In this document: one piece after another, positions 1,132-22,549 of the stretch
Position numbering within the stretch: the first letter of the stretch is position 1
Layout: each line of letters starts with the position of its first letter
Notes under the pieces: model-generated
The model's database searches: none
Told to the model about the DNA's origin: nothing
The model's input: the letters and a program-made list of their open reading frames with translations, nothing else
Program-made: the position numbers and the translations under genes
Virus record (IMG/VR): IMGVR_UViG_3300027509_000036
Span: 1-23,402 of that record
From: a virus
Length of the DNA: 23,402 nt
Direction: 5' to 3' (one strand)

Positions 1132-2112
1132 TTACGATTCGCGATGAGTCAACATGCACATCTTGATCGCTTTACGCTCGTTAAAAACTCGGCTCCAAGA
1201 TCCGGCCGTTTCTAGTACCGCATTGCTTGGGTTACTGCCGCCGGTATATTTCATCCCGGTGGGGTGAAAACACGATTCCCAACGATGATACAATGCCTGA
1301 CCCCCATGCCCGTTGCCTTCTGATGGCAAGGATTCGACTTCTGTGGGAACCGTCGGATTACCCAAACCGAACTGAAAACAGCCTGCTCCGAACACGTAAG
1401 TGTTGTAAACGCCAGCAGACTCTGGAGCTAGAGCATCATCGACAATTACTCGTCTACCGATGAAAGTTGAGAATGCTGGATCGCCGTTGGCGGGTGTAAT
1501 AGTTCGGATAAGTTCTTGCTTCTGCAAATTAGCGAATGGCAAACTATGCATTACTATAATATCTAAATCAGCAGAAGAGTCTCCAAGCGAAGTTGTGGTG
1601 TCGATCAGCGCCGACGGCGAGATGTTAGTTACACCAGCGCTATATGCGCTACCGGAAATATCGAGTACCATATCGTCCTCATTAGCGAGATTGTTTGCAA
1701 AAACACCTTTAGTTACCGCAAGAGCACATGCTTGTAGTTTGCGCATTTTATATGCGGCTACCCGATTTGCAATAGCATTAGCAGGATCTGCATGAGCCAA
1801 TTCTCGCGCTAGGGACATCGTCTTCCAAGATTTATTTCTAGAAAGTCGGACAGTCTCTTCTGTCTGAGTTTGAATGCCATCGTGAGTTGATTTTACTGCC
1901 GGATCATCACTAGAGATATTCTCGTCGGAGTCGTCCAGATCTCGGTAGCTATGAACGTCAATCTTCGAGCCGGGACCGGCAAGAAATGCGTCAAGTTGGG
2001 GTGAGCGCTGGAATGCGCCGGAGCTAATAAAAGCAGATTTTTGTTCGGTTAGAACTTGTACCCGGCTTGTAAAAAGCGACGGATCTATTACATCGGAAAT
2101 TCTGACGGTCAT
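1132..2112 (-). CDS. Major capsid protein (gp13-like, HK97-fold family)
   Basis: The 326-aa protein forms the icosahedral shell. It has the features of the gp13-like major capsid family: a short N-terminal stretch with ISDVIDPSLF, an acidic region near residues 55-70, a helical middle segment (DPANAIANRVAAYKMRKLQ), a beta-rich domain with GRRVIVDDAL, and the typical ending with SWSRVFNERKAIKMCMLTH. It lies directly after the scaffold gene and before the connector, as expected. ATG 2112 is chosen because GAGG sits 8 nt upstream; a TTG at 2118 is in frame but lies too close to that site. The long leader, a strong hairpin at 2181-2210 and a terminator just downstream suggest separate high-level expression. 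Confidence 0.85.
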   Translation of the reverse strand: MTVRISDVIDPSLFTSRVQVLTEQKSAFISSGAFQRSPQLDAFLAGPGSKIDVHSYRDLDDSDENISSDDPAVKSTHDGIQTQTEETVRLSRNKSWKTMSLARELAHADPANAIANRVAAYKMRKLQACALAVTKGVFANNLANEDDMVLDISGSAYSAGVTNISPSALIDTTTSLGDSSADLDIIVMHSLPFANLQKQELIRTITPANGDPAFSTFIGRRVIVDDALAPESAGVYNTYVFGAGCFQFGLGNPTVPTEVESLPSEGNGHGGQALYHRWESCFHPTGMKYTGGSNPSNAVLETAGSWSRVFNERKAIKMCMLTHRES

Positions 2113-2180
2113 TTGCAATTCCTCTTGTTAGTTTGCAGTTGTTGTAATTCGAGCTGCAGTGACTTTTTAAGACGGATTGC

Positions 2181-2210
2181 GGCCCTATGATTTCAAACGC
2201 TGGTAGGGCC
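2181..2210. promoter_or_regulatory. Stem-loop in the capsid leader
   Basis: GGCCCTA (2181-2187) and TAGGGCC (2204-2210) form a perfect 7-bp stem with a 16-nt loop. No T-run follows on the minus strand, so it is more likely a leader structure or processing element than a terminator. The 216-nt gap between scaffold and capsid otherwise holds a CGTATATA motif at 2302-2309 and a small hairpin at 2266-2279 (ACTGC/GCAGT). No gene is seen in it. Confidence 0.5.
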
Positions 2211-2301
2211 ATCCCGAAAAAGCGCTTGTACTACGTTGTTAGATTGTTGATATAGTCAGATTAATACTGCGCATGCAGTGATAAATGCTAATCGTTTGAC
2301 A

Positions 2302-2309
2302 TATATACG
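2302..2309 (-). promoter_or_regulatory. CGTATATA motif upstream of capsid
   Basis: Minus-strand context is AATTACGTATATATGTC. It lies 20 nt after the scaffold stop and about 190 nt before the capsid start, and is a candidate phage promoter for capsid (see findings). Confidence 0.5.
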
Positions 2310-2328
2310 TAATTGTTAATTATTTTTT

Positions 2329-3105
2329 TTAAACTTCAACGCCTGCCGCTTTTGCTAATGCTGCATAGCGAGTTGGATTGTCACGTTTAAGCTGCGTCTG
2401 CTGCGTTAAATTATAAGTTTTTTCGGCAAATGGATTTGTAATAGTGCTTGCAGTATTAGCTGAGCCTTTTATATCAGCTGACTGACTATCAGGAAAATAA
2501 AACGGCTGGTGCTCTCTCTTATTCTCGATCCATTGCTCCGGAGTTAGTCCAACATCAACGCCAACATTATCTTTTGTGACGACAGCGCCTTCATCGTTAA
2601 TATCAAATAGATGACTAGCGGAGCTAAGTAACTCACTCATAGCATCTTGTCTAACTTTACTTTCGTTGAGCGCTGCTTGTACTGACTCGTTGATTTTTGA
2701 TTTTCTGTTAGTAGTTTCATACTCATTGATCCGTTCATCACGCATCTCTAGCTCTTTTGATAACTTATCAATCTCGCGTTGCAATGGAGCTGTTTTACTA
2801 TTGAGTGCAGCGGTGACTTGATCTTCCACGCTTGCGTCTGGTGTTGCTGATGCTCGGAGACTTTCGATTTCATCGAGTTGTGTTCTGACCTCATCAGCAT
2901 CAAGACCTGCAAAAGCTTGTAGCGCTTGTTTGTTTGTTCGGTTATCAGTGCGCTCTCTTTGAAGTGCTAAGTGGATCTTATCTACATCAGTTTGTGTTTT
3001 TATATCAGCTGCTGGAAGTAGCGTAAAGCCATCATCGTCAGCTTTATATAAATGTTCAAATCCTGCTGGAATATCTTCTACTTTTTCAAATTTTTCTAGT
3101 AACAT
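2329..3105 (-). CDS. Capsid assembly scaffolding protein
   Basis: A 258-aa protein expected to fill the procapsid interior during assembly and leave or be degraded before DNA packaging. The N-terminus is LLEKFEKVEDIPAGFEHLY, the centre (about residues 45-150) is a charged, coiled-coil-rich helix, and the C-terminus has the common scaffold ending NPFAEKTYNLTQQTQLKRDN followed by PTRYAALAKAAG, with an NPF..T.NLT..  motif. It lies between the Mu-F-like head protein and the capsid gene, the standard position. AGGA with a 7-nt CA-rich spacer precedes ATG 3105. No protease domain is visible. Confidence 0.85.
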   Translation of the reverse strand: MLLEKFEKVEDIPAGFEHLYKADDDGFTLLPAADIKTQTDVDKIHLALQRERTDNRTNKQALQAFAGLDADEVRTQLDEIESLRASATPDASVEDQVTAALNSKTAPLQREIDKLSKELEMRDERINEYETTNRKSKINESVQAALNESKVRQDAMSELLSSASHLFDINDEGAVVTKDNVGVDVGLTPEQWIENKREHQPFYFPDSQSADIKGSANTASTITNPFAEKTYNLTQQTQLKRDNPTRYAALAKAAGVEV

Positions 3106-3128
3106 GTGTGTGTCCTGTGTGTGTTTTG

Positions 3129-3136
3129 TATTTACG
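3129..3136 (-). promoter_or_regulatory. CGTAAATA motif upstream of scaffold
   Basis: Minus-strand context is AAATCCGTAAATACAAAAC, directly after the Mu-F-like stop codon at 3141 and 23 nt before the scaffold ATG. It matches the A-variant of the recurring CGTAWATA motif. Confidence 0.4.
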
Positions 3137-3140
3137 GATT

Positions 3141-4298
3141 TTATGAGTTAAGTCTGGCCTTCAATTCATCGAGATTTATAAACTTTCCTTGGCCGTTTAC
3201 AAACTTAGAAATTGGCTGACCAGACTTTCTATATAGCGCTGCTCGCTTCTTACCAAGCACTTCATTCTGGAAATCAGTGGACTGTTTGGAAAGGAACAAA
3301 TTGTAGTCTGTTTTTTCGGGCACTCGGCCAATTCTTGCACGGCGTTGTTGCCTTGCAAATTTGTCAAAAGTGCCTTTTTCACCACGGGGTAAGTCTGCTC
3401 TAGATTTGATATTTTTTAGTTTATTTTTCTTTGCATACTCTGATAGTAGAATCTTTTCAGTAGTCGGATCGAATGGCCTTTCCCAATAACTATTCGGATC
3501 TAGATAAGGTAGATAAATTGATCTGCAATTATAGTGTCGTGGTATTCGTGGTCTTCCGGCATCGCCTACATCAAACAAATTACCATCAAGGGCAATACAG
3601 CCGGGAGTCGTACCGCTGTCTAAAGTTGCTCTGAAGATCTCTTGCTTAACAAAGTTTTTATTAGTCTCGTATAGTTTAGATCTTGCTTGAGTTGATACAC
3701 TGATAACTGATGTACTAGCAATTGTCGATAATGCATTTTTTGCATGTTTGATAGCGCCTTTTTTCACTTGGGCTACAGCTTGAGTTGGAGTAGACCCAGC
3801 TCGCATTGCTGTTGATAATTGAGTTGTCATACGCTTTGCGTCGAGATTTTCAAGCTCTTCGATAGACTCGTCGATAGTCTGTCCTTGCGGTAGAGTGATG
3901 TCTTTGACTGTTTGTTTTAAATCGTCTTTTTTTGGTTGTTTGAATTCGAGTGGTTCGGCAAGTGGCAGACTGTTTGAAATTGTTGTAGCTGCAAATATCG
4001 CTTCTATCTGCGATAGCTCTAGCATCTCATCAGGTAGTGTTGTGCGAAGTGCGCGATATGCTGGTGCTCTGAGCTTAGTCAGCTCTTTTAAAAGTTTGTT
4101 TACTGTTGATTTATACCTAGGTGATGTTATTGGTATGCCTTCAAGCTTTGTTGCATAAAACAAAAGTAGTTGCTCGGCTTTTTCATCAGTGTTTTTTAAT
4201 AGCTTTCCTGACTCTTTACTGAGATTGTTTGCGTAATTTATAAGATATAGCTGACGTCTGACGAAGATGTCGAAAATCGTTTCATTGACTGTTGCCAC
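3141..4298 (-). CDS. Mu gpF-like head morphogenesis protein
   Basis: A 385-aa minor head protein. The C-terminal half carries the Mu-F-like domain: a helical segment (KHAKNALSTIASTSVISVSTQ), then IFRATLDSGTTPGCIALDGN near residues 223-242, and IPRHYNCRSIYLP near residues 253-265. The Cys and His-Tyr-Asn-Cys-Arg-Ser elements are hallmarks of the family. Family members bind the portal or procapsid interior and are needed for head assembly. The gene begins 5 nt after the portal stop with GTG 4298 and a weak ribosome-binding site, so coupling with portal is likely. There is no toxin domain fused at the C-terminus; the last 100 residues are basic. Confidence 0.8.
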   Translation of the reverse strand: MATVNETIFDIFVRRQLYLINYANNLSKESGKLLKNTDEKAEQLLLFYATKLEGIPITSPRYKSTVNKLLKELTKLRAPAYRALRTTLPDEMLELSQIEAIFAATTISNSLPLAEPLEFKQPKKDDLKQTVKDITLPQGQTIDESIEELENLDAKRMTTQLSTAMRAGSTPTQAVAQVKKGAIKHAKNALSTIASTSVISVSTQARSKLYETNKNFVKQEIFRATLDSGTTPGCIALDGNLFDVGDAGRPRIPRHYNCRSIYLPYLDPNSYWERPFDPTTEKILLSEYAKKNKLKNIKSRADLPRGEKGTFDKFARQQRRARIGRVPEKTDYNLFLSKQSTDFQNEVLGKKRAALYRKSGQPISKFVNGQGKFINLDELKARLNS

Positions 4299-4303
4299 TG
4301 TCG

Positions 4304-5701
4304 TTACTCGTCAAACAGCAGCTGTTCTTCTTGTGACAATAGTATTTGCTCTTCGTCAAAAGTTGTTTCGACGATTCCCTTTTTCTGCAACAACTTGTGC
4401 ATACTTGCATCTGAGATCTTAAGACCATTTTGCTTGCTTGTAGTTAAGTCGAGTATCTCAGAAGAGCCGAGAACAGAATTAGTAAATTGCAAGTTAGCTC
4501 GAACTTCAATTTCCTTTTCGGGGTTTGCAACGTTGAATAGTGGAGCTAATTGTCGAAGTACATTTTCCAGTGCTTGCGCTCCTGCTATTGCCATCTGTGA
4601 GTAGCTTGCGAGCATCGATTCTTCGCGAAGTGAAATCGCAGTACTGGAATCTCTATTTGATTTACTCTGCGGAGATTGCATTGTTGCCAGTTGATGCGCC
4701 TTTTCATATTCATTTTCAATTGCTACTCGTGTCTCTTGCAAACCGAGCGATGATGCTCCGATGAATGATGCGCTACCGCCTTCTTGAAGTTCGATCTTTG
4801 CGCCGTATCCAGTCCTGACATCTTCGTCTTCTTGGCCGAATTTTCTTCCTGAAATTACAAGAGTCTCATTCGCCATGGAGTGTAAATTAAGATGGTAGTC
4901 ACAGGTAAGTTTATAGATTGTCAGACATGATGATTTCAAAGCTGACAATGGTGGAGCGCTGATATCGCAGTGAGTATCGCCAGCATTTACAAACGAAAAC
5001 GGCATCAGAGGTAATGTTTTACCCTGAGCATTTGGTGCGATATAACTGAGTGCATCGACGTTTGCAGACTCGTCATTTGTTGTTGCAGTGACGTATCGAA
5101 AGTTTCCATCTTCATCGGGTAGCAGTCGGATAACTCGATATTGTTTTACTTCAGAGTATTTATAGTTTTCATCAAGTTGATGTGCTGTTTCATTCAATAC
5201 GACATAGTTGATTTTATTGTCATCGTCACAAGACCAGATCGGTACGGCTGTGTTCTTGTAAATTTTTACTATAGGCCGGATCTTTTTTGTAACAGGATCA
5301 ATGGCGATGTCTCCCAACAGCGAGGCTCTGCCGAATTTTAATTGTTCCTCATTAATGGCTCGGATAAATTCATAGATAGTCGTATGGTCGCCAGTCGCAT
5401 CTGTAAACAGACTTTCCATCGATTTGGGTAGAGTTACAGATGCTGGATATCTGTGCAGTACTCCGAGAATACGTTTTACAGCAGTCTCAAAAATATGCGG
5501 TACAGTGCCTCGATCTTTATAAGCTTCGTAATTTTTAAAGCCAATTTGTCCGGGTAGCATTCCGTCAATTTGCATGCCCGTTGTCGGCTTTAAGTACACT
5601 GCAGATTTAGCTTTAACTGCGGAAGGTCCAGCAATAAGATCAGCTAGCTCTTCCCATTCTTCTAGCATGGCAGTAAAACAGGGATGTTCGGCTCTCAGCA
5701 T
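4304..5701 (-). CDS. Portal protein (DUF4055-type)
   Basis: A 465-aa protein forming the dodecameric ring through which DNA enters and leaves the head. It resembles the DUF4055 portal family: an N-terminal helix with EHPCFTAMLEEWEELADLIA, then VYLKPTTGM, an RILGVLHRYP segment, SLLGDIAIDP in the middle and STAISLREESMLASYSQMAI near residue 355, followed by an acidic C-terminus. It lies between large terminase and the Mu-F-like protein. Translation starts at ATG 5701, inside a perfect inverted repeat (5700-5730) that would also cover the ACGAGAG ribosome-binding region. Confidence 0.85.
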   Translation of the reverse strand: MLRAEHPCFTAMLEEWEELADLIAGPSAVKAKSAVYLKPTTGMQIDGMLPGQIGFKNYEAYKDRGTVPHIFETAVKRILGVLHRYPASVTLPKSMESLFTDATGDHTTIYEFIRAINEEQLKFGRASLLGDIAIDPVTKKIRPIVKIYKNTAVPIWSCDDDNKINYVVLNETAHQLDENYKYSEVKQYRVIRLLPDEDGNFRYVTATTNDESANVDALSYIAPNAQGKTLPLMPFSFVNAGDTHCDISAPPLSALKSSCLTIYKLTCDYHLNLHSMANETLVISGRKFGQEDEDVRTGYGAKIELQEGGSASFIGASSLGLQETRVAIENEYEKAHQLATMQSPQSKSNRDSSTAISLREESMLASYSQMAIAGAQALENVLRQLAPLFNVANPEKEIEVRANLQFTNSVLGSSEILDLTTSKQNGLKISDASMHKLLQKKGIVETTFDEEQILLSQEEQLLFDE

Positions 5702-5730
5702 ATATACTCTCGTGTGTTAAGAGTATATAT
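5700..5730. repeat. 11-bp inverted repeat over the portal start
   Basis: ATATATACTCT (5700-5710) and AGAGTATATAT (5720-5730) are perfect complements with a 9-nt loop that holds the ribosome-binding region. The outer arm overlaps the CGTATATA motif at 5726-5733 and the inner arm includes the first bases of the portal ATG. It may be a protein-binding dyad or a translation-masking hairpin. Confidence 0.7.
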
Positions 5731-5733
5731 ACG
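5726..5733 (-). promoter_or_regulatory. CGTATATA motif upstream of portal
   Basis: Minus-strand context is AAAAAACGTATATATACTC, 16 nt after the large terminase stop and 25 nt before the portal ATG. Confidence 0.5.
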
Positions 5734-5749
5734 TTTTTTATAGTGGTTT

Positions 5750-7324
5750 TTAGTATTGTCCGAGTACTCGTGACTCAGAGAAATGTTGAGACATTGAATT
5801 GCACAGATAACGTAGGACATCTGAGCAATGATCCTCTGATGACTTCAAGGTATCAAAATCTCGATCCGGATCTCTCTGTAACGCGGGTACGGTGCGAAGT
5901 ATTCCTTCATCGCAGCATTCACATATAAACAAGCCCGGTTTTTCTCGCGTAACACCTTCAAACTTTCGGGCGTTGGCAAAAGCAATTCGCATACGCTCGT
6001 ATCCAGTTTTTCGAGTGCCGGGTGATTTATCTGATTTTAGAAATGTTGGACCTTTATACGTTGTACCATCAATACGAACTTTTTCTGCCAGATCTCGTCC
6101 GACGCTATGGCCGTTATCGACATTGAAGATGGCACTGTCAGACGGCCCGGGTTTTACGTGACCATAAATTCCCATTTCTAGCTCGCGTTCGATGATGCCT
6201 CTTCCAATTTGCGTTGCAAGCATGCGTACTCCGGTATCTTTTTTACCAGTCCAGCCATACCATTCTTTAAAACAAAATATGTCGTTTTTAACTGTATGTA
6301 CAAGCTCTCCGTCGATCATTACATCAGAGCCATCAGAGATCGCAGCCCAAATTACCGCGAAAGGTTTTGCTGATCCATAGTCGAAGCAACGATAGATTTT
6401 CCATTGCTGCGGTGGCATAAAATCATTGACTACGTTGAAGCGCTTATCAAATACGTCTCCAAACATCAGAGTATCGTCATTTTGGGAAAATTCGCCCGTC
6501 AGCCAAGCGATTCTTTTAGCCGGATCTGCCACATCCATCAATTCAGATCCGTACCCTTTCAGATACGTGTTCTCGATCCAACTTGAGAATATTGCGCATT
6601 GTGTGCGCTCATAAGTTTCTATTTTTTGTGTAATTGGATCGTATGCCTCTGTCTTGCGCGTTGTTATTTTTCCGTAAGGGACAGTTCCAATTCCGAATCT
6701 TTCTTTAATGTCTCTCGCACTAGGCCCATAAGGATTTGTTGTGGCTATGGAGAAATTTTTTAGCTCTGGTAGAAGAGTCATTTCTCCAGTTTCTTCATCC
6801 ACGGGGCTGTGTTTTTCTGGCTCGAAAGAGTTTCGGTTTGAGCTATGTACTAAGTCATAAACACTAAGATCAGGCCAACTTGATAATTCATTGAAGTATA
6901 TATGCGATACTTCGTGCCCGTGGAGAATTGAATTGTATTGTGCTTCATTATTTATAACTCGAAATAGTAGAGACTCACCACTTGGCCACTTCCAATAATT
7001 TGAGCCAGCGCTTGCGAGGAATTTAGCGCCATCGTTAAATGCGCCGTACATTCGTTGAGATTTTGTTATTAAATCGTCAAGGCCTTTATATGATGTTGCG
7101 AGATATACTCCTTTAAGAAATGGGCCATAGCCCATACCGACATACTTTCTAAAATGCGCCAGAGTGATTTCAGTTTTTCCAGATCCGCGAGTGCCTACAA
7201 ATAATTGCCGCTGTGCAGGACATGAAAGCATCATAGACTGAGCACCGGGTAGCGGCTTGAACACTATATTGTATTCATCGTCTTCGTCTTCGTTTGGTAG
7301 TTCTATTGCTGTATTACTCAACAA
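5750..7324 (-). CDS. Terminase large subunit (packaging ATPase/nuclease)
   Basis: A 524-aa DNA packaging motor. The N-terminal ATPase has Walker A VGTRGSGKT at residues 43-51 and a Walker B-like segment HIYFNE at 141-146, with the usual Asp replaced by Asn before the catalytic Glu. A TTNPYGPS coupling-like motif lies near 195-202. The C-terminal RNase H-like nuclease shows CFDYG (Asp315), GPSDSAIFN (Asp396) and SEDHCSDVLRY (Asp502), the three expected metal-binding acids. The start overlaps the end of the preceding small gene by 11 nt, and portal follows. Length and motif order fit an intact protein. Confidence 0.92.
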   Translation of the reverse strand: MLSNTAIELPNEDEDDEYNIVFKPLPGAQSMMLSCPAQRQLFVGTRGSGKTEITLAHFRKYVGMGYGPFLKGVYLATSYKGLDDLITKSQRMYGAFNDGAKFLASAGSNYWKWPSGESLLFRVINNEAQYNSILHGHEVSHIYFNELSSWPDLSVYDLVHSSNRNSFEPEKHSPVDEETGEMTLLPELKNFSIATTNPYGPSARDIKERFGIGTVPYGKITTRKTEAYDPITQKIETYERTQCAIFSSWIENTYLKGYGSELMDVADPAKRIAWLTGEFSQNDDTLMFGDVFDKRFNVVNDFMPPQQWKIYRCFDYGSAKPFAVIWAAISDGSDVMIDGELVHTVKNDIFCFKEWYGWTGKKDTGVRMLATQIGRGIIERELEMGIYGHVKPGPSDSAIFNVDNGHSVGRDLAEKVRIDGTTYKGPTFLKSDKSPGTRKTGYERMRIAFANARKFEGVTREKPGLFICECCDEGILRTVPALQRDPDRDFDTLKSSEDHCSDVLRYLCNSMSQHFSESRVLGQY

Positions 7325-10778: not shown

Positions 10779-11603
10779 TTATAACACTTCAACTGTTACA
10801 AATTTTTCATCGTCCCAATTGATTTCAGACAAGCAAGTATCCACTCCCTTAACCTCAGGGAAGCTCCAGACCATGCGGATTTCGTCGCCGTCTTCATTCC
10901 AGCCAAAACGTTCATTCTCACTAAAGTATTCATCACCATTATCAAGACCATCAAGCCATGGCAGGTATACTGCCCATACAGCGTCGTCGTGTAAAAAGCA
11001 GCCGTGAAAATACTCACAAAGTGAATTACGATAGTCGATGCAACGTTTTAGTATATCGTCCCGGTCGGTGTGAATTTTTTCAATTTCTTCCACCGCTTCT
11101 GCGAGATCGCTGTTATCTGTAGATCCGCAAATGTATTGGTACATTAAAGCCTCCACTGAAACTGATTTTGCTGCTTCGGCTTTAAGATAATTAAAATACT
11201 CATTCTTCAGGCCGTGTATTTCATCAAGCAATTCGATGAATTCGTGGCACACATCATCACTATCACCGACGTATTCACATTCATCATCTGATATTACACC
11301 AACACTTATTAGATAGTCAGTTATGATCTCGATAGCGCCCGAATCATGAGAAATACCAAAGCTGTTTTTTAGTATCTCTATATCCTCATCGTCCAACAAG
11401 TGTTTTTGATCCAGTAGCTTTGTAGAATAACCCACATCAGTATATTGCATTGCGAAAACGTAGTCGGGAGCTAACTCGACATGTAACTCGACTTGGCTCA
11501 TATCGTAGTCTGGATGAACGTAGTCTTCATATACTTTGTTGTAGTCTTCAATCAATGTGCTAACGATCCGGCCGCCGATATTTAATTTCTCAAAATTAGT
11601 CAT
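10779..11603 (-). CDS. Highly acidic accessory protein, unknown
   Basis: A 274-aa protein with about 64 Asp/Glu and about 18 Lys/Arg by my count, so strongly negative over its whole length. Acid-rich patches include LLDDEDIEIL, DDECEYVGDSDD and NEDGDEIRMV. No catalytic motif, membrane segment or signal peptide is visible. Such charge is typical of DNA-mimic anti-restriction or anti-defence proteins, but no named family is recognised, so the function is open. It shares an almost identical ribosome-binding leader with the two genes upstream (11716 and 12140), and a hairpin terminator lies just before its own leader, which implies its own promoter. Confidence 0.75.
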   Translation of the reverse strand: MTNFEKLNIGGRIVSTLIEDYNKVYEDYVHPDYDMSQVELHVELAPDYVFAMQYTDVGYSTKLLDQKHLLDDEDIEILKNSFGISHDSGAIEIITDYLISVGVISDDECEYVGDSDDVCHEFIELLDEIHGLKNEYFNYLKAEAAKSVSVEALMYQYICGSTDNSDLAEAVEEIEKIHTDRDDILKRCIDYRNSLCEYFHGCFLHDDAVWAVYLPWLDGLDNGDEYFSENERFGWNEDGDEIRMVWSFPEVKGVDTCLSEINWDDEKFVTVEVL

Positions 11604-14210: not shown

Positions 14211-14506
14211 AAACGTCTCCTAGGCGTTGTTATGAATGTATTTAGTGAATATAGCACAATTGTGGGTGACTTTTGTAGTTTTTAACGTTGTTAATTTGTT
14301 TAGTGCAATGTTGTTTGCAGTATTGTTGAGATTGTTGTTGACGTAAGGAAAGTCAGGGCTGACTTTTGAAACGTTGTTGAACAATGTTGTTGTTGAAATT
14401 TCGTCGGGGGTATATATGGTGCGATATCTAGCGTATTGACGGGGTGCTTGGTCAATCGCTGGTGGATTTGACTGCAAACAATACTGCAAATGTTAGCGAC
14501 GAGTTG

Positions 14507-14536
14507 ACAGTCCTCTACAGTCCCCGACAGTCCCCG
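14507..14536 (+). repeat. Three tandem 10-bp repeats
   Basis: ACAGTCCTCT is followed by two exact copies of ACAGTCCCCG (14517-14526, 14527-14536) and then ACA. Helical-turn spacing suggests protein-binding sites. Confidence 0.85.
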
Positions 14537-14744
14537 ACAATTCCACACAGTTCAAAATTATGCAGAAAAATTCTGGAAACTGCACAATACTGCAGAAAAT
14601 TCAGGGTAGGAAAACTACTGCTACTGTCACCCATGATCTCCCGACTGTTTGTAAATTGTATGTTGACTGTTTGAAACTGTTATAAACTGTTGAAAGTATT
14701 AAAGAAAATAAAATATTGTTAGAGCACTTCAGACTATCTGCAAT

Positions 14745-14787
14745 GACTGCAAACATCAGACTGCAAACATCACTGCACTAAGCAGTG
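14745..14787 (+). repeat. Tandem 14-bp iteron-like repeats and hairpin
   Basis: GACTGCAAACATCA occurs twice in direct tandem (14745-14758, 14759-14772); a shorter GACTGCAAACA copy lies at 14470-14480. The second copy runs into CACTGC/GCAGTG (14771-14787), a perfect 6-bp stem with a 5-nt loop. Confidence 0.85.
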
Positions 14788-14860
14788 GCGGTAAGAGACT
14801 ATTATAGAGTGGTTTTGATGGTGTTGAAAAGTGGAAAACGGGCTGTGTTATTTTGTAAAA

Positions 14861-14868
14861 CGTAAATA
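14861..14868 (+). promoter_or_regulatory. CGTAAATA motif, plus strand
   Basis: Plus-strand context is AAAACGTAAATATTGACTC. It lies 260 nt upstream of the plus-strand gene at 15128 and abuts a short TTG-started frame at 14869. Confidence 0.35.
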
Positions 14869-15012
14869 TTGACTCACACACTCGTATTTTTGGCTAGAAT
14901 TTCAAATGGGGAAAAAATCCCGCCAGACGCTCGAAAAAAATCTCGAATGATTGATTCGGTTTTTCCGATGTATCAAATTCGATATTTGATTTTTAATAAT
15001 TATGGAAATTGA
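14869..15012 (+). CDS. Possible small protein or remnant with GEKIPPDAR
   Basis: A 47-codon frame from TTG 14869 to TGA 15012 contains ARISNGEKIPPDARKK, a wording seen in many small phage proteins and similar to GEKIPQD in the gene at the right end. There is no Shine-Dalgarno and the C-terminal part is AT-biased, so it may be a remnant or chance. Confidence 0.25.
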   Translation: MTHTLVFLARISNGEKIPPDARKKSRMIDSVFPMYQIRYLIFNNYGN

Positions 15013-15127
15013 AATCTTAAAATTCTGATTTTTAGAAATTCAATATTTCGGAAATCATATTTTCAAATATTGTTAATTAAAAATACAAAAATACAATTGT
15101 CTTAATTTGAGATTTTAAATACTCAAA

Positions 15128-17668: not shown

Positions 17669-17783
17669 AACTTCACCATTGCATTGATCAAGTCGGATAG
17701 ACTTTCGTTTTCTTGTTTAATGTATTTGATATGTCGTGTTCTCCTGTTGTGGTTATTTATGGTTTATGTTGAAGTTCAACTTC

Positions 17784-17851
17784 AAGTGTCACGCCAGAAA
17801 TTGAAGTTACTCTATACTATTAGAGCAACTCTGATTTCTGGCGTGACACTT
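17784..17851. repeat. 68-nt inverted repeat, unit 1
   Basis: AAGTGTCACGCCAGAAAT (17784-17801) and its exact complement (17834-17851) give an 18-bp perfect stem. Inside, AGTTACTCTA and TAGAGCAACT give a further 10 bp with one mismatch (G-U on one strand) around TACTAT. The two stems are separated by a symmetric 3-nt mismatch. Confidence 0.95.
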
Positions 17852-17887
17852 AACATCAATCCCACCAATCTTCACGAGTTCAACTTC

Positions 17888-17955
17888 AAGTGTCACGCCA
17901 GAAATTGAAGTTACTCTATACTATTAGAGCAACTCTGATTTCTGGCGTGACACTT
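17888..17955. repeat. 68-nt inverted repeat, unit 2
   Basis: Identical to unit 1, with arms at 17888-17905 and 17938-17955. It lies 4 nt before the stop of the replication gene on the minus strand side, so it could also serve as its terminator, though no T-run follows. Confidence 0.95.
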
Positions 17956-17959
17956 AACA

Positions 17960-18694
17960 TCAATCCCACCAATCTTCACGAGTTCTACGGGTTATAGCTG
18001 ACTCAATGACCTCATTAATCTCAACATCAAGCTGAGTAATACGAATTCTCTCGCCATTCTCCCTCACTTGCTTACTCTTTGTTAAAGTCATCCCAGCTTT
18101 CTTAATGAAGTCACCAACTACTCGTAATGGCTCATTCTCCATTCTCTCGCCATCCACAGACATTCCAAGCAATGCCTTGATATCATGTGACATCTCTTCT
18201 TGTATAGCCCAATCACTAAACCTTTCAACATTTGGTGCACTCTTCGAGAATACATGAATACAATCAGGTCCATCAATACCCAACTTAGACAATCCAATAT
18301 CAATTAATTCTCTCTTCGCTACCTGAGTTCCATAGTCAATCACATGATTTTTAGCAACATCATATCTATCAGAATCTTCTAATTCCTGATCAACTCGCTC
18401 ATACCACTCACGAGCTTTCACAAGCCACCCAACTTTATTAAATTCATGTTCAATGATACTCAGCTCTTCATCTTCAACACTTGCACACCAGAACTGTTCA
18501 AGATCATATCGACATAATGCAAATTTCTCATCTAGTCGTTTACCTTTCTTCTTACGCAATCGCTTAGCATCATCTTCATCGATCACATAAGCCGCTCTTA
18601 TATTATCAATGTAGTTCTGTCGGCCCTTCTTTTTTGCTGAGGATAGACAGACTTGCCTATCCTCCTCGACTTTCCCAAATAATTCACCTTCCAC
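17960..18694 (-). CDS. C-terminal part of the replication primase-helicase (separate frame)
   Basis: A 244-aa frame overlapping the end of the helicase gene by 97 nt in the -1 frame. It begins at GTG 18694 with AAGG too close to act as a normal ribosome-binding site. The sequence is helical and charged (GRQNYIDNIRAAYVIDEDDA, KKKGKRLDEKFALC), without a catalytic motif, and ends RTREDWWD. It most likely continues the upstream protein: adding one A to the A6 run at 18630-18635, or a -1 shift there, joins them as one chain of about 1,010 residues. As a free protein it would be a small helical replication accessory factor. Confidence 0.65.
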   Translation of the reverse strand: MEGELFGKVEEDRQVCLSSAKKKGRQNYIDNIRAAYVIDEDDAKRLRKKKGKRLDEKFALCRYDLEQFWCASVEDEELSIIEHEFNKVGWLVKAREWYERVDQELEDSDRYDVAKNHVIDYGTQVAKRELIDIGLSKLGIDGPDCIHVFSKSAPNVERFSDWAIQEEMSHDIKALLGMSVDGERMENEPLRVVGDFIKKAGMTLTKSKQVRENGERIRITQLDVEINEVIESAITRRTREDWWD

Positions 18695-20991
18695 CCTTGA
18701 TCACGCTTCATACGAACATAATTTCCAAATACGTAATTCTTGGCCAAATTATCAGCGGCAACCACTTTCACATGAATTTCTTTGAGGAACTCATACCATG
18801 ATGAATCCTTTTTCGGAATGTCGGAACATAACTCTTCAACCAGAGCAGCATTGCGCGCCAATAGGTCTCTGATCACATCAACGTCAACACAATCACTACA
18901 TTGTCGCTTGGTGACAAACGCGGAGTACTCTCCACCATGTCTAACACGAGCCATCTGCTGGTCAAAATCTGAGTGAGTGATATTGTTGAAGTTGAATATA
19001 CCTATAACATGATCGAACGACCCTTGAATATCAACACCAGTACCAATCGAAGGAGTCGCCAGTACTATCTCACCCTCGAACTTCTCACCTTCAGACAACG
19101 ATCCTAGATACTTGATATAGTCCAATATCTCGATAGTGTCTGAATTGTCTCCATGTATAGCAGTGTGCCTAATACCTCGATCCCTAAGATGCGTAGAGAA
19201 CGCCATTACCCAATTTTTACTATTGGTTGTAACAAAAACAGAATCACCAGATTTTACACAACGATTGATGTGATTTTCAATGTTCACTTGATTTTCATAT
19301 ACATCAATACACTTACCACTAACCTTATATTCGTTCTCTTGGAATATCATATTCGGTAATACCATCGAATCATCAATATCCACTTCACCTCGAATCATCA
19401 TTAACGTTTCAACTGTTATCATGCCTAAATCAGCATCAAGACATACTACTTGTTTAGCACACTTGATAATTCTATAAAAGAGTCGGGCTATCATTGCTCT
19501 GTCCTTGCTGTGGATAGTCCCTTTCTTTTGAGCCAGTGTTCGAATAACTTGCTCACATTCATCGATCAACACAATGTCATATCCCTTACCGAAAATTACT
19601 CGCTCTTCAATCCTTCGTAAAGAGTTGATACAAATGGCAAGTTCGTCACTGCTCTGTAAATCGGTTCCTGTACTGTCCTTGTAATTGTCCAAACCTATAC
19701 GAGTGGATTGATCTGCAAGTAGACTGATCCGATGTCCTATGTTCAACACTGATAGACCCTTGGCTCTAGCCTTCTCTACGAGTGATTTTAGTTGATATGT
19801 TTTACCAGTACCCTTTGGTGATTTTATAAATGTCTCACCGTCATGCAACTCAATCGGAGCACAATGTTCATGAGTGTATTTTACTATAGGTGACTCTTCT
19901 TCTTCTTCATCATCATCATCATCGATATCCACATCAGCAGCAACACGAGCCGCTTTATTTGCTTTACTCTTTGCCACCATATCTTCGAGTACAGTATCAA
20001 CGACATTAACACTAGTGTTATTCAAGCTAAATTCAGGATATCCATTTTCCTGCACTAACCTAATAAGACTTCCTATAGCACGATCATCAGGATCGATATT
20101 CTGGAGACTATTATTGATGAATTCTATAGAACCATAACTACCATCAGATAAATTCTTGATCCAATTCTCATCAAACTCAGCAGCAACCATTGAATTAATG
20201 AATTTGTACCAAGGATCGTATTCAACGCCATCCTCAAAGATATAGAAGATCATCTCAGCCAATTTTACTTTATCGGCTTGTGTTGATGGACTGAATACTT
20301 TACCTACTTGCTTCGATATCTTCTTCTCACGATCAATAATCTTTTGATCCCGCTTGAACGCAAGTGCATCAAGTAATTTGCCGTCATTGTAGGTCATGTA
20401 GAATTCATCTTCGTAACCCTTACGCGCTACGGGAGCAACGTAACCACGGGCACGAGAGCTGTTGCTGTTGTCCACCCTTGCAGTATCCAGAAAATCAGTG
20501 AATATAGCGTCGCGACGTTCATGGTGCTCTTCCACTGCCATGTGTCGCTTCAAAGGAAAGTACATCCTGAATCGTGGTCCAATATCACCCTTGCCATCTG
20601 GTGAATTATGTGAGAATGATGTGTGTAGGACATACGCATACTCGGAGTAACGCTGTTCCGCTTCTTCGATAGTCATACCACCATCATGGTCAGCAACGAT
20701 CATCGTATAGTCTTCGCCATACATCCACTTCTTGCGAATACAATCATCTTGACCGTTCCATTCCATTCGTCCAACGTCATCATCATCTCTGAAAGTTAGT
20801 GGATATATGTATGGTGCATTGTGTTTATTGTCAGTCACCATCTTAAGTGATTTCAACTGTTCATAGAACTCACCAAAGGTCATAGTGAATTGATCTTCTG
20901 ATCTTATACCGCCCTTGTTGGTTTCCCTATCACCATCTACGTCAGGTCGTACCATTGCGTATTTTATTTCTGTTGATTTTGACTTACTCAT
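18598..20991 (-). CDS. Primase-polymerase-like plus SF2 helicase replication protein
   Basis: A 797-aa replication initiator; numbers here count from the in-frame ATG at 21006. Residues about 95-200 resemble an archaeo-eukaryotic-type primase: Asp106-His-Asp108 in MIVADHDGG, then VLHTSFSH and GPRFRMYFPL. An acidic Asp/Glu run (360-371) links to a helicase like herpes-type origin-binding proteins and CyRepA-type plasmid initiators: Walker A SPKGTGKT (396-403), Walker B LIDECEQ (480-486), CLDADLG (522-528), TPSIGTGVDIQG (651-662) and QQMARVRHGG (683-692) with arginine finger. ATG 20991 is chosen because GGAGG lies 8 nt upstream and it overlaps the preceding stop. The 3' end is out of frame with its probable continuation. 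Confidence 0.85.
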   Translation of the reverse strand: MSKSKSTEIKYAMVRPDVDGDRETNKGGIRSEDQFTMTFGEFYEQLKSLKMVTDNKHNAPYIYPLTFRDDDDVGRMEWNGQDDCIRKKWMYGEDYTMIVADHDGGMTIEEAEQRYSEYAYVLHTSFSHNSPDGKGDIGPRFRMYFPLKRHMAVEEHHERRDAIFTDFLDTARVDNSNSSRARGYVAPVARKGYEDEFYMTYNDGKLLDALAFKRDQKIIDREKKISKQVGKVFSPSTQADKVKLAEMIFYIFEDGVEYDPWYKFINSMVAAEFDENWIKNLSDGSYGSIEFINNSLQNIDPDDRAIGSLIRLVQENGYPEFSLNNTSVNVVDTVLEDMVAKSKANKAARVAADVDIDDDDDEEEEESPIVKYTHEHCAPIELHDGETFIKSPKGTGKTYQLKSLVEKARAKGLSVLNIGHRISLLADQSTRIGLDNYKDSTGTDLQSSDELAICINSLRRIEERVIFGKGYDIVLIDECEQVIRTLAQKKGTIHSKDRAMIARLFYRIIKCAKQVVCLDADLGMITVETLMMIRGEVDIDDSMVLPNMIFQENEYKVSGKCIDVYENQVNIENHINRCVKSGDSVFVTTNSKNWVMAFSTHLRDRGIRHTAIHGDNSDTIEILDYIKYLGSLSEGEKFEGEIVLATPSIGTGVDIQGSFDHVIGIFNFNNITHSDFDQQMARVRHGGEYSAFVTKRQCSDCVDVDVIRDLLARNAALVEELCSDIPKKDSSWYEFLKEIHVKVVAADNLAKNYVFGNYVRMKRDQGWKVNYLGKSRRIGKSVYPQQKRRADRTTLII

Positions 20992-21649
20992 CGAAAAGTC
21001 CTCCATGTGTTATATCAACTTGCTTATTTTTATTTATAACTTTTCCGATTTGTATATCAAACAAATCAAAATTCTCTTGATTTAACTGCTTTTCAATGTA
21101 ATATGATCCATCCACAACCTTGACTGGACTATGAAAACCAACGCCAGATTTTAAGTCTGTTGGCTCCGCTGTGGTGAAAATCTTCTTCAATTTTGCATGT
21201 CTTTTTGTCATATCTTTTTTAACGAAACGAGTTTCACATGGCAAGTACACTCGATACTCACGACCATCATTCTCAGTCGGTGGGATGCTGTGTATGATGT
21301 AATTCCAATCTTCAAGCTCTTCCAATACATCATCTATATCAGTTCCAGCTATAACATCAAATATGAGCATCTGACTGTCATGCAGGTTTTTACTGTTGTT
21401 GCCAGTAGTCTTGCCTTTAAAGTCATGGTCTATGCAACTCCAAGCAGTGATCGATCCAGCCTCGCTTATACCCACATTGACGTTGATATTTATAGGATTT
21501 TCAATTAAGTGACAAATAGCTTCTAATTTAAATTCGTCTTTTATTACTCTAGTGAATTGCAGGGTATTATCAATAGTCTCAACCTGTTTGATGTAACTGA
21601 ATATCCTACGTCCATCGAGATCATCAAAAAATGTCATTGGTATCATCAT
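20984..21649 (-). CDS. Primase-like protein with altered active site
   Basis: A 221-aa protein whose residues about 90-150 follow the same pattern as the primase region of the next gene: MLIFDVIAGTDIDDVLEELE, then YIIHSIPPTEN and REYRVYLPCE. The Asp-x-Asp pair expected at the metal site is not preserved (FDVIAG), so it may be a catalytically weak paralogue, a regulatory primase subunit, or the AEP-like half of a two-chain enzyme. GGGAG precedes ATG 21649, which overlaps the preceding stop as ATGA; the 3' end overlaps the next gene. Confidence 0.6.
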   Translation of the reverse strand: MMIPMTFFDDLDGRRIFSYIKQVETIDNTLQFTRVIKDEFKLEAICHLIENPININVNVGISEAGSITAWSCIDHDFKGKTTGNNSKNLHDSQMLIFDVIAGTDIDDVLEELEDWNYIIHSIPPTENDGREYRVYLPCETRFVKKDMTKRHAKLKKIFTTAEPTDLKSGVGFHSPVKVVDGSYYIEKQLNQENFDLFDIQIGKVINKNKQVDITHGGLFDE

Positions 21650-22511: not shown

Positions 22512-22549
22512 CCAGTGGAGGAATTGTTCCTCCACTGGCCTTATATACG
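22512..22549 (-). promoter_or_regulatory. CGTATATA motif and 12-bp leader hairpin of the replication operon
   Basis: CGTATATA at 22549-22542 (minus strand, context GAGTTACGTATATAAGG) is followed 3 nt later by a perfect 12-bp stem with a 3-nt loop (arms 22512-22523 and 22527-22538). No T-run follows, so it is a 5' leader structure of the 22489 gene rather than a terminator. Confidence 0.65.

Follow-up and report, generated by a model that had tools for sequence, protein, structure and literature searches.

A large dyad lies immediately 3′ of the replication gene rep in the window, which is the complete virus record IMGVR_UViG_3300027509_000036 (23,402 bp), and we consider it rather likely that this dyad is the core of the phage replication origin, acted on by the adjacent Rep protein. 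The origin reading is favored because stem-loops are enriched 3′ of rep in relatives, because the flanks of these genes carry the motif GGGGAYAAC and, at some loci, tandem units, and because a Limnohabitans relative has a dyad of matching dimensions. The record is linear, has no end repeats, and is probably a fragment, probably derived from a metagenome assembly.

Hairpin scanning and folding located two copies of the dyad on the minus strand, at positions 17784 to 17851 and 17888 to 17955. Each spans 68 nt and is composed of 18-nt perfectly complementary arms, AAGTGTCACGCCAGAAAT and ATTTCTGGCGTGACACTT, flanking a 32-nt interior. The interior contains 66% AT (60% for the contig) and also pairs with itself around a 6-nt loop; the dyad has 6 unpaired nucleotides at its centre and includes four mismatches. 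The 68-nt inverted repeat described in the initial annotation, with 18 perfect base pairs and a near-perfect inner part, was therefore recovered in both units. The two dyads clearly outrank all other hairpins in the contig (score of 19 versus a best score of 13 in 40 whole-contig shuffles), with a DNA fold z score of −11.9. Copy 2 begins 4 nt past the Rep stop codon, indicating that the window has a large stem-loop within ~60 nt of the 3′ end of rep (start, +4; span, 68). Neither the dyad arm nor the repeat was found when viral contigs, phages, and plasmids were searched; an Rfam search gave no match, and a tRNA search found none.

The gene beside the dyad is located on the minus strand and is split over two frames, 18598 to 21006 and 17960 to 18694. 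Profile, structure, and motif comparisons indicated that the first frame (802 aa) encodes a primase-like N terminus with a DxD motif followed by an SF2 helicase of the CyRepA1/origin-binding-protein type, and that the second (244 aa), in the −1 frame, encodes the C-terminal part. The two open reading frames (ORFs) match positions 5 to 392 and 406 to 594, respectively, of the CyRepA1 Rep profile, and the helicase ORF scores 214.6 bits against the curated family cut-off of 200 (NCBIfam NF042913). The adjoining gene had been described as a primase-helicase gene; its helicase was confirmed, and in place of a single intact frame we found two ORFs in different frames that are parts of one family profile. 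The −1 frame break is located at CAGCAAAAAAGAAGG, with an A6 run within positions 18625 to 18639, an ORF overlap extending from 18598 to 18694, and an 8-bp hairpin upstream. Rep is encoded by one open frame in most relatives. The break may be a sequencing or homopolymer error, a real mutation, or programmed slippage. An annotated CyRepA1 gene of Bradyrhizobium (L006:2029-5017) is also seemingly split into two adjacent ORFs.

The Rep helicase matches the Pfam family Herpes_ori_bp. The herpes origin-binding protein was the best PDB sequence match of a profile built from 24 Reps (E = 2e-14) and provided the top folds for the modelled helicase of the window (E = 1e-16). This resemblance, in sequence and in predicted fold, agrees with the earlier assignment of the protein to helicases of the origin-binding type. 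The model of the window's own N-terminal region was poor. The DxD motif of this region is common to the window and its relatives, and the N-terminal region of one of them, from Mesorhizobium (L034), was confidently modelled as an archaeo-eukaryotic primase (AEP), the closest folds being those of the cyanophage S-2L PrimPol (Z = 10.6) and RSF1010 RepB′ (Z = 9.1 and 8.8). An ORF upstream of rep (20984 to 21649) displays weak similarity to the Rep N terminus (E = 9e-5 in a single-target comparison) and is possibly a second primase-like domain. Close relatives were sought in viral contigs with Rep, the portal, the integrase, the primase-like ORF, and the terminase, and none was found; genome-wide searches for further relatives returned few matches.

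In a first test, hairpins with loops of ≤30 nt were not enriched 3′ of CyRepA1 rep genes (3/52 versus 29/569 elsewhere). No enrichment was detected for the fold z score over 160 nt 3′ of rep (P = 0.31) or for the fold z score and long-range pairs over 110 nt (P = 0.16 and 0.33, respectively), and inverted repeats anywhere in the 200 nt 3′ of rep gave a P value of 0.08. Folding of the 3′ flanks of AEP-type relatives revealed several stem-loops similar to that of the Sulfolobus plasmid pRN1, including a stem of ~30 bp in Mesorhizobium L034. A pRN1-like geometry was defined by a start at ≤60 nt from the rep stop codon and a span of 40 to 115; because these criteria (start, span, and loop range) were set after seeing some of the tested loci, held-out loci were scored apart. 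With this definition, half of the rep 3′ ends (16/32) were positive, compared with 15/118 intergenic ends of other genes. After removal of near-duplicates, the stem-loop was present at 14/27 AEP-type rep 3′ ends and at 12/99 ends of other genes (P = 3e-5). The five held-out loci, unused in choosing the criteria, gave 3/5 (P = 0.015) and, under a stricter score, 2/5 (P = 0.004). Shuffled flanks contained such stem-loops in a mean of 0.5 of 30 cases, compared with 14/30 for the actual rep 3′ flanks. Stem-loops were not enriched at rep 5′ ends (4/29) or at the 3′ ends of the other CyRepA1 loci, cyanobacterial or encoding other non-AEP Reps (4/31), and about half of the AEP-type relatives have no such stem-loop 3′ of rep.

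The nonamer GGGGAYAAC, which was first noticed in stems, is present 17 times in the 6.6 kb following rep and 6 times in the other 349 kb, corresponding to a ~150-fold enrichment, and is found in seven relatives. Counts of 8-mers, which were run unbiased, placed TATATAAA, GGGGACAA, and GGGGATAA above Bonferroni thresholds in the 3′ flanks of relatives. Since the Reps of motif-bearing loci are mostly 30 to 38% identical (L044/L046 and L040/L047 being closer pairs), sharing of the nonamer does not merely reflect recent ancestry. GGGGAYAAC often occurs as inverted pairs, which form the dyad arms in several loci, in several cases around an AT-rich TATATAAA core; at L027, L044, and L046, the inverted copies are 47 bp apart with the AT-rich core between them. 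Two or three tandem units are present at L027, L040, and L047, with periods of 72, 101, and 85 to 90. In the dyad of L046 (Limnohabitans), the arms measure 17 nt and the interior 32 nt, compared to 18 and 32 nt in the window. GGGGAYAAC is absent near the window dyad (best match, 6/9), and our confidence in the origin reading is held to a moderate level because the arm sequence differs from that of the seven motif-bearing relatives.

Replication of pRN1 requires a 100-nt stem-loop, which begins 54 bp after the primase-helicase gene and is conserved in structure rather than in sequence (PMC4234260). A similar stem-loop has been proposed for phage BIP-1 (PMC4234260, PMC3869888). The window and pRN1 share a large stem-loop located immediately 3′ of the gene for a primase-helicase initiator (with a putative primase part in the window), the structure being in both cases more widely shared than the sequence. 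They differ by the helicase, which is of the SF3 type in pRN1 and of the SF2, origin-binding-protein type in the window, and by the size of the loop (58 nt in pRN1 versus a 32-nt interior in the window, where the unit is also doubled). Function of the stem-loop has been experimentally established in pRN1 only, and specific binding of Rep to it was not detected (PMC4234260). A second precedent is herpes simplex oriS, in which inverted sites around an AT-rich spacer are used by the origin-binding protein (PMC12543377). This protein (UL9/OBP) is a relative of the Rep helicase in sequence and fold, and the relatives may have an oriS-like layout, with inverted GGGGAYAAC pairs and, in several of them, an AT-rich core, whereas the window has inverted arms, putative Rep sites, around the AT-rich interior; a hairpin can form, as in oriS. 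OBP has no primase domain; the site sequences also differ, and the herpes origin is not directly 3′ of the initiator gene. RSF1010 provides a parallel for the primase, since RepB′ has the AEP fold modelled for L034 and recognizes hairpin DNA, whereas its short ssiA and ssiB hairpins are single-strand initiation sites and its replication proteins are three separate polypeptides (PMC4434180). Plasmid pSYSA encodes a helicase of the same family (NF042913), but the start of this CyRepA1 replicon, which is subject to sRNA control, has been proposed to lie 5′ of rep (PMC9978351), in contrast to the 3′ location of the window dyad.

Based on these comparisons, we infer that Rep binds, melts, and primes at the dyad. 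The adjacent Rep, in which a putative RepB′-like primase accompanies a herpes-OBP-type helicase, would bind the inverted arms and open or extrude the AT-rich interior, and the strand exposed in this way would be primed by its primase domain. This origin core would have been doubled by a recent duplication event involving the AGTTC repeats.

The main rival to the origin reading is an RNA hairpin at the 3′ end of rep, which would act in the transcript extending from rep to the downstream genes as an RNase III site or a 3′-end stabilizer, without any role in replication initiation. The position of the dyad, 4 nt past the rep stop codon and ahead of small same-strand ORFs, is compatible with such a role, as is RNA folding, which was slightly better in the rep sense (−44.8 kcal/mol, 29 pairs) than in the antisense orientation (−41.1 kcal/mol). 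RNase III is known to act on long double-stranded stretches of phage transcripts (PMC5371410). However, an RNA element explains neither the nonamer, enriched 150-fold, and the AT-rich 8-mer that the relatives carry 3′ of rep, nor why the ends of other genes show no such enrichment, and we consider this explanation unlikely.

The dyads are carried by a 104-bp unit repeated in tandem (17773 to 17876 and 17877 to 17980). Self-comparison of the sequence showed that the copies are 100% identical, in agreement with the exact duplication reported in the initial annotation, and that identity spans 109 nt, to position 17985, since AGTTC recurs at 17981 to 17985. This 5-bp microhomology is found on the plus strand at the duplication junctions (17773 to 17777, with recurrences at 17877 to 17881 and 17981 to 17985). 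The octamer TTGAAGTT/AACTTCAA, for which five positions had been listed, occurs at exactly those positions (17769, 17778, 17801, 17882, and 17905), which account for 5 of its 10 copies in the contig. The 17-bp palindrome TTGAAGTTcAACTTCAA (17769 to 17785) straddles the outer border of copy 1, and copy 2 contains only half of it. The duplication does carry, as noted previously, the last codons and the stop codon of rep, an orphan minus-strand copy at 17856 to 17876 repeating 17960 to 17980. This orphan end and the AGTTC microhomology suggest that a single ancestral unit was recently duplicated in tandem. Identity of the copies had been ascribed to either recent duplication or selection and gene conversion; recent slippage at the 5-bp repeats, or an assembly error, fits these features, and gene conversion explains them less well.

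If the second copy were an assembly artefact, the phage would have one dyad that was doubled in the contig, a possibility that concerns copy number only and is compatible with any reading of the dyad. An exact identity of 109 nt in a record probably assembled from a metagenome is in keeping with an artefact, and the period of 104 equals k + 1 for k = 103, a value included in a k-list of JGI MEGAHIT assemblies (PMC7541895), which may have included this record. Conversely, simple contig overlap would rarely place AGTTC at both borders by chance (~1% by our estimate), and the relatives have diverged tandem units whose periods differ (72, 85 to 90, and 101). An artefactual copy therefore appears improbable to us.

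A recombination site, either the core site of a tyrosine integrase or the telomere site of a protelomerase, is very improbable. The inner arms and their 6-bp spacer look like a tyrosine-recombinase core, the contig encodes a tyrosine integrase, and relatives of Rep occur in telomere phages. However, the telomere sites of VP58.5 and phiARM81ld, used as controls, are perfect palindromes of 42 to 44 bp with a loop of 0, in contrast to the 6-nt centre and four mismatches of the window dyad, and no protelomerase family match was obtained among the ORFs scanned in this contig, itself probably a fragment; a telomere site was rejected on these two grounds. For the integrase, putative arm-type repeats adjoin int instead, in the noncoding region upstream of this gene (14211 to 15127). 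This region contains eight ACTGCA sequences and tandem repeats of the 10-bp GACAGTCCCC, includes the 100 nt with the highest AT content in the contig, and is a candidate attP or a candidate second or competing origin. Finally, an intrinsic transcription terminator, suggested by a strong hairpin right behind a stop codon, was rejected as scarcely plausible because no T-run follows the stem on either strand and the dyad was not among the results of a terminator scan.

Cumulative skew, proposed in the initial annotation as a check, did not point to the dyad. The change-point at 4-fold sites was located at 16.3 kb (support, 14.2 to 17.3 kb), outside the dyad, and the skew switches with all major genes running in one direction. 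The change-point is a cumulative maximum, which under the usual bacterial rule has the polarity of a terminus and is the opposite of that of an origin. Given this offset and this polarity, the skew profile was discarded as evidence for an origin precisely at the dyad.

Several other features of the contig were recorded. The packaging and head genes (1132 to 7324) are 35 to 47% identical to those of Vibrio, Alteromonas, Pseudomonas, and other phages of ~55 to 62 kb; judged from sequence comparison, the virus is a mosaic temperate phage combining such genes with a CyRepA1 replication module. CGTATATA occurs nine times, always on the minus strand (2302, 5726, 7849, 9348, 10156, 10462, 15818, 15993, and 22542) and mostly just upstream of minus-strand genes, and is likely a phage promoter motif. 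A perfect 12-bp hairpin (22512 to 22538) is present right after a CGTATATA motif, before the point at which the 22489 gene starts. A near-identical leader, TTCATAGGAGAATTTAA, is located upstream of three consecutive genes, at 11603, 12096, and 12793.

The possible origin of the initial annotation has thus gained comparative support from the 3′ stem-loops, the nonamer, the OBP-like helicase, and the pRN1 precedent. Arms that do not carry the motif of the relatives, the lack of a close relative, and the skew offset weigh against it, as do the half of the relatives without the structure, the negative outcome of the first enrichment and fold-energy tests, the repeats on the integrase side, the 5′ start proposed for pSYSA, the undetected specific binding of Rep in pRN1, and the possibly artefactual copy. 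More broadly, the window may belong to a class of phage and plasmid replicons in which a RepB′-like primase fused to a herpes-OBP-like helicase would start replication at an AT-cored dyad of inverted sites that directly follows the gene encoding it and is in some cases multiplied in tandem. Such an arrangement would parallel, in bacteria, both oriS and the origin of pRN1; we regard this generalization as evenly poised. If the origin reading is correct, an origin would be located and defined for phage and plasmid replicons of a class that has received little study, and the fused primase-helicase would link two precedents that have been studied separately, the stem-loop origin of pRN1 and the herpes origin, which is recognized by a related helicase. 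A repeat that looks like a product of chance would become a directly testable origin, with GGGGAYAAC as a candidate recognition site in cultivated bacteria, including Limnohabitans and Methylobacterium.
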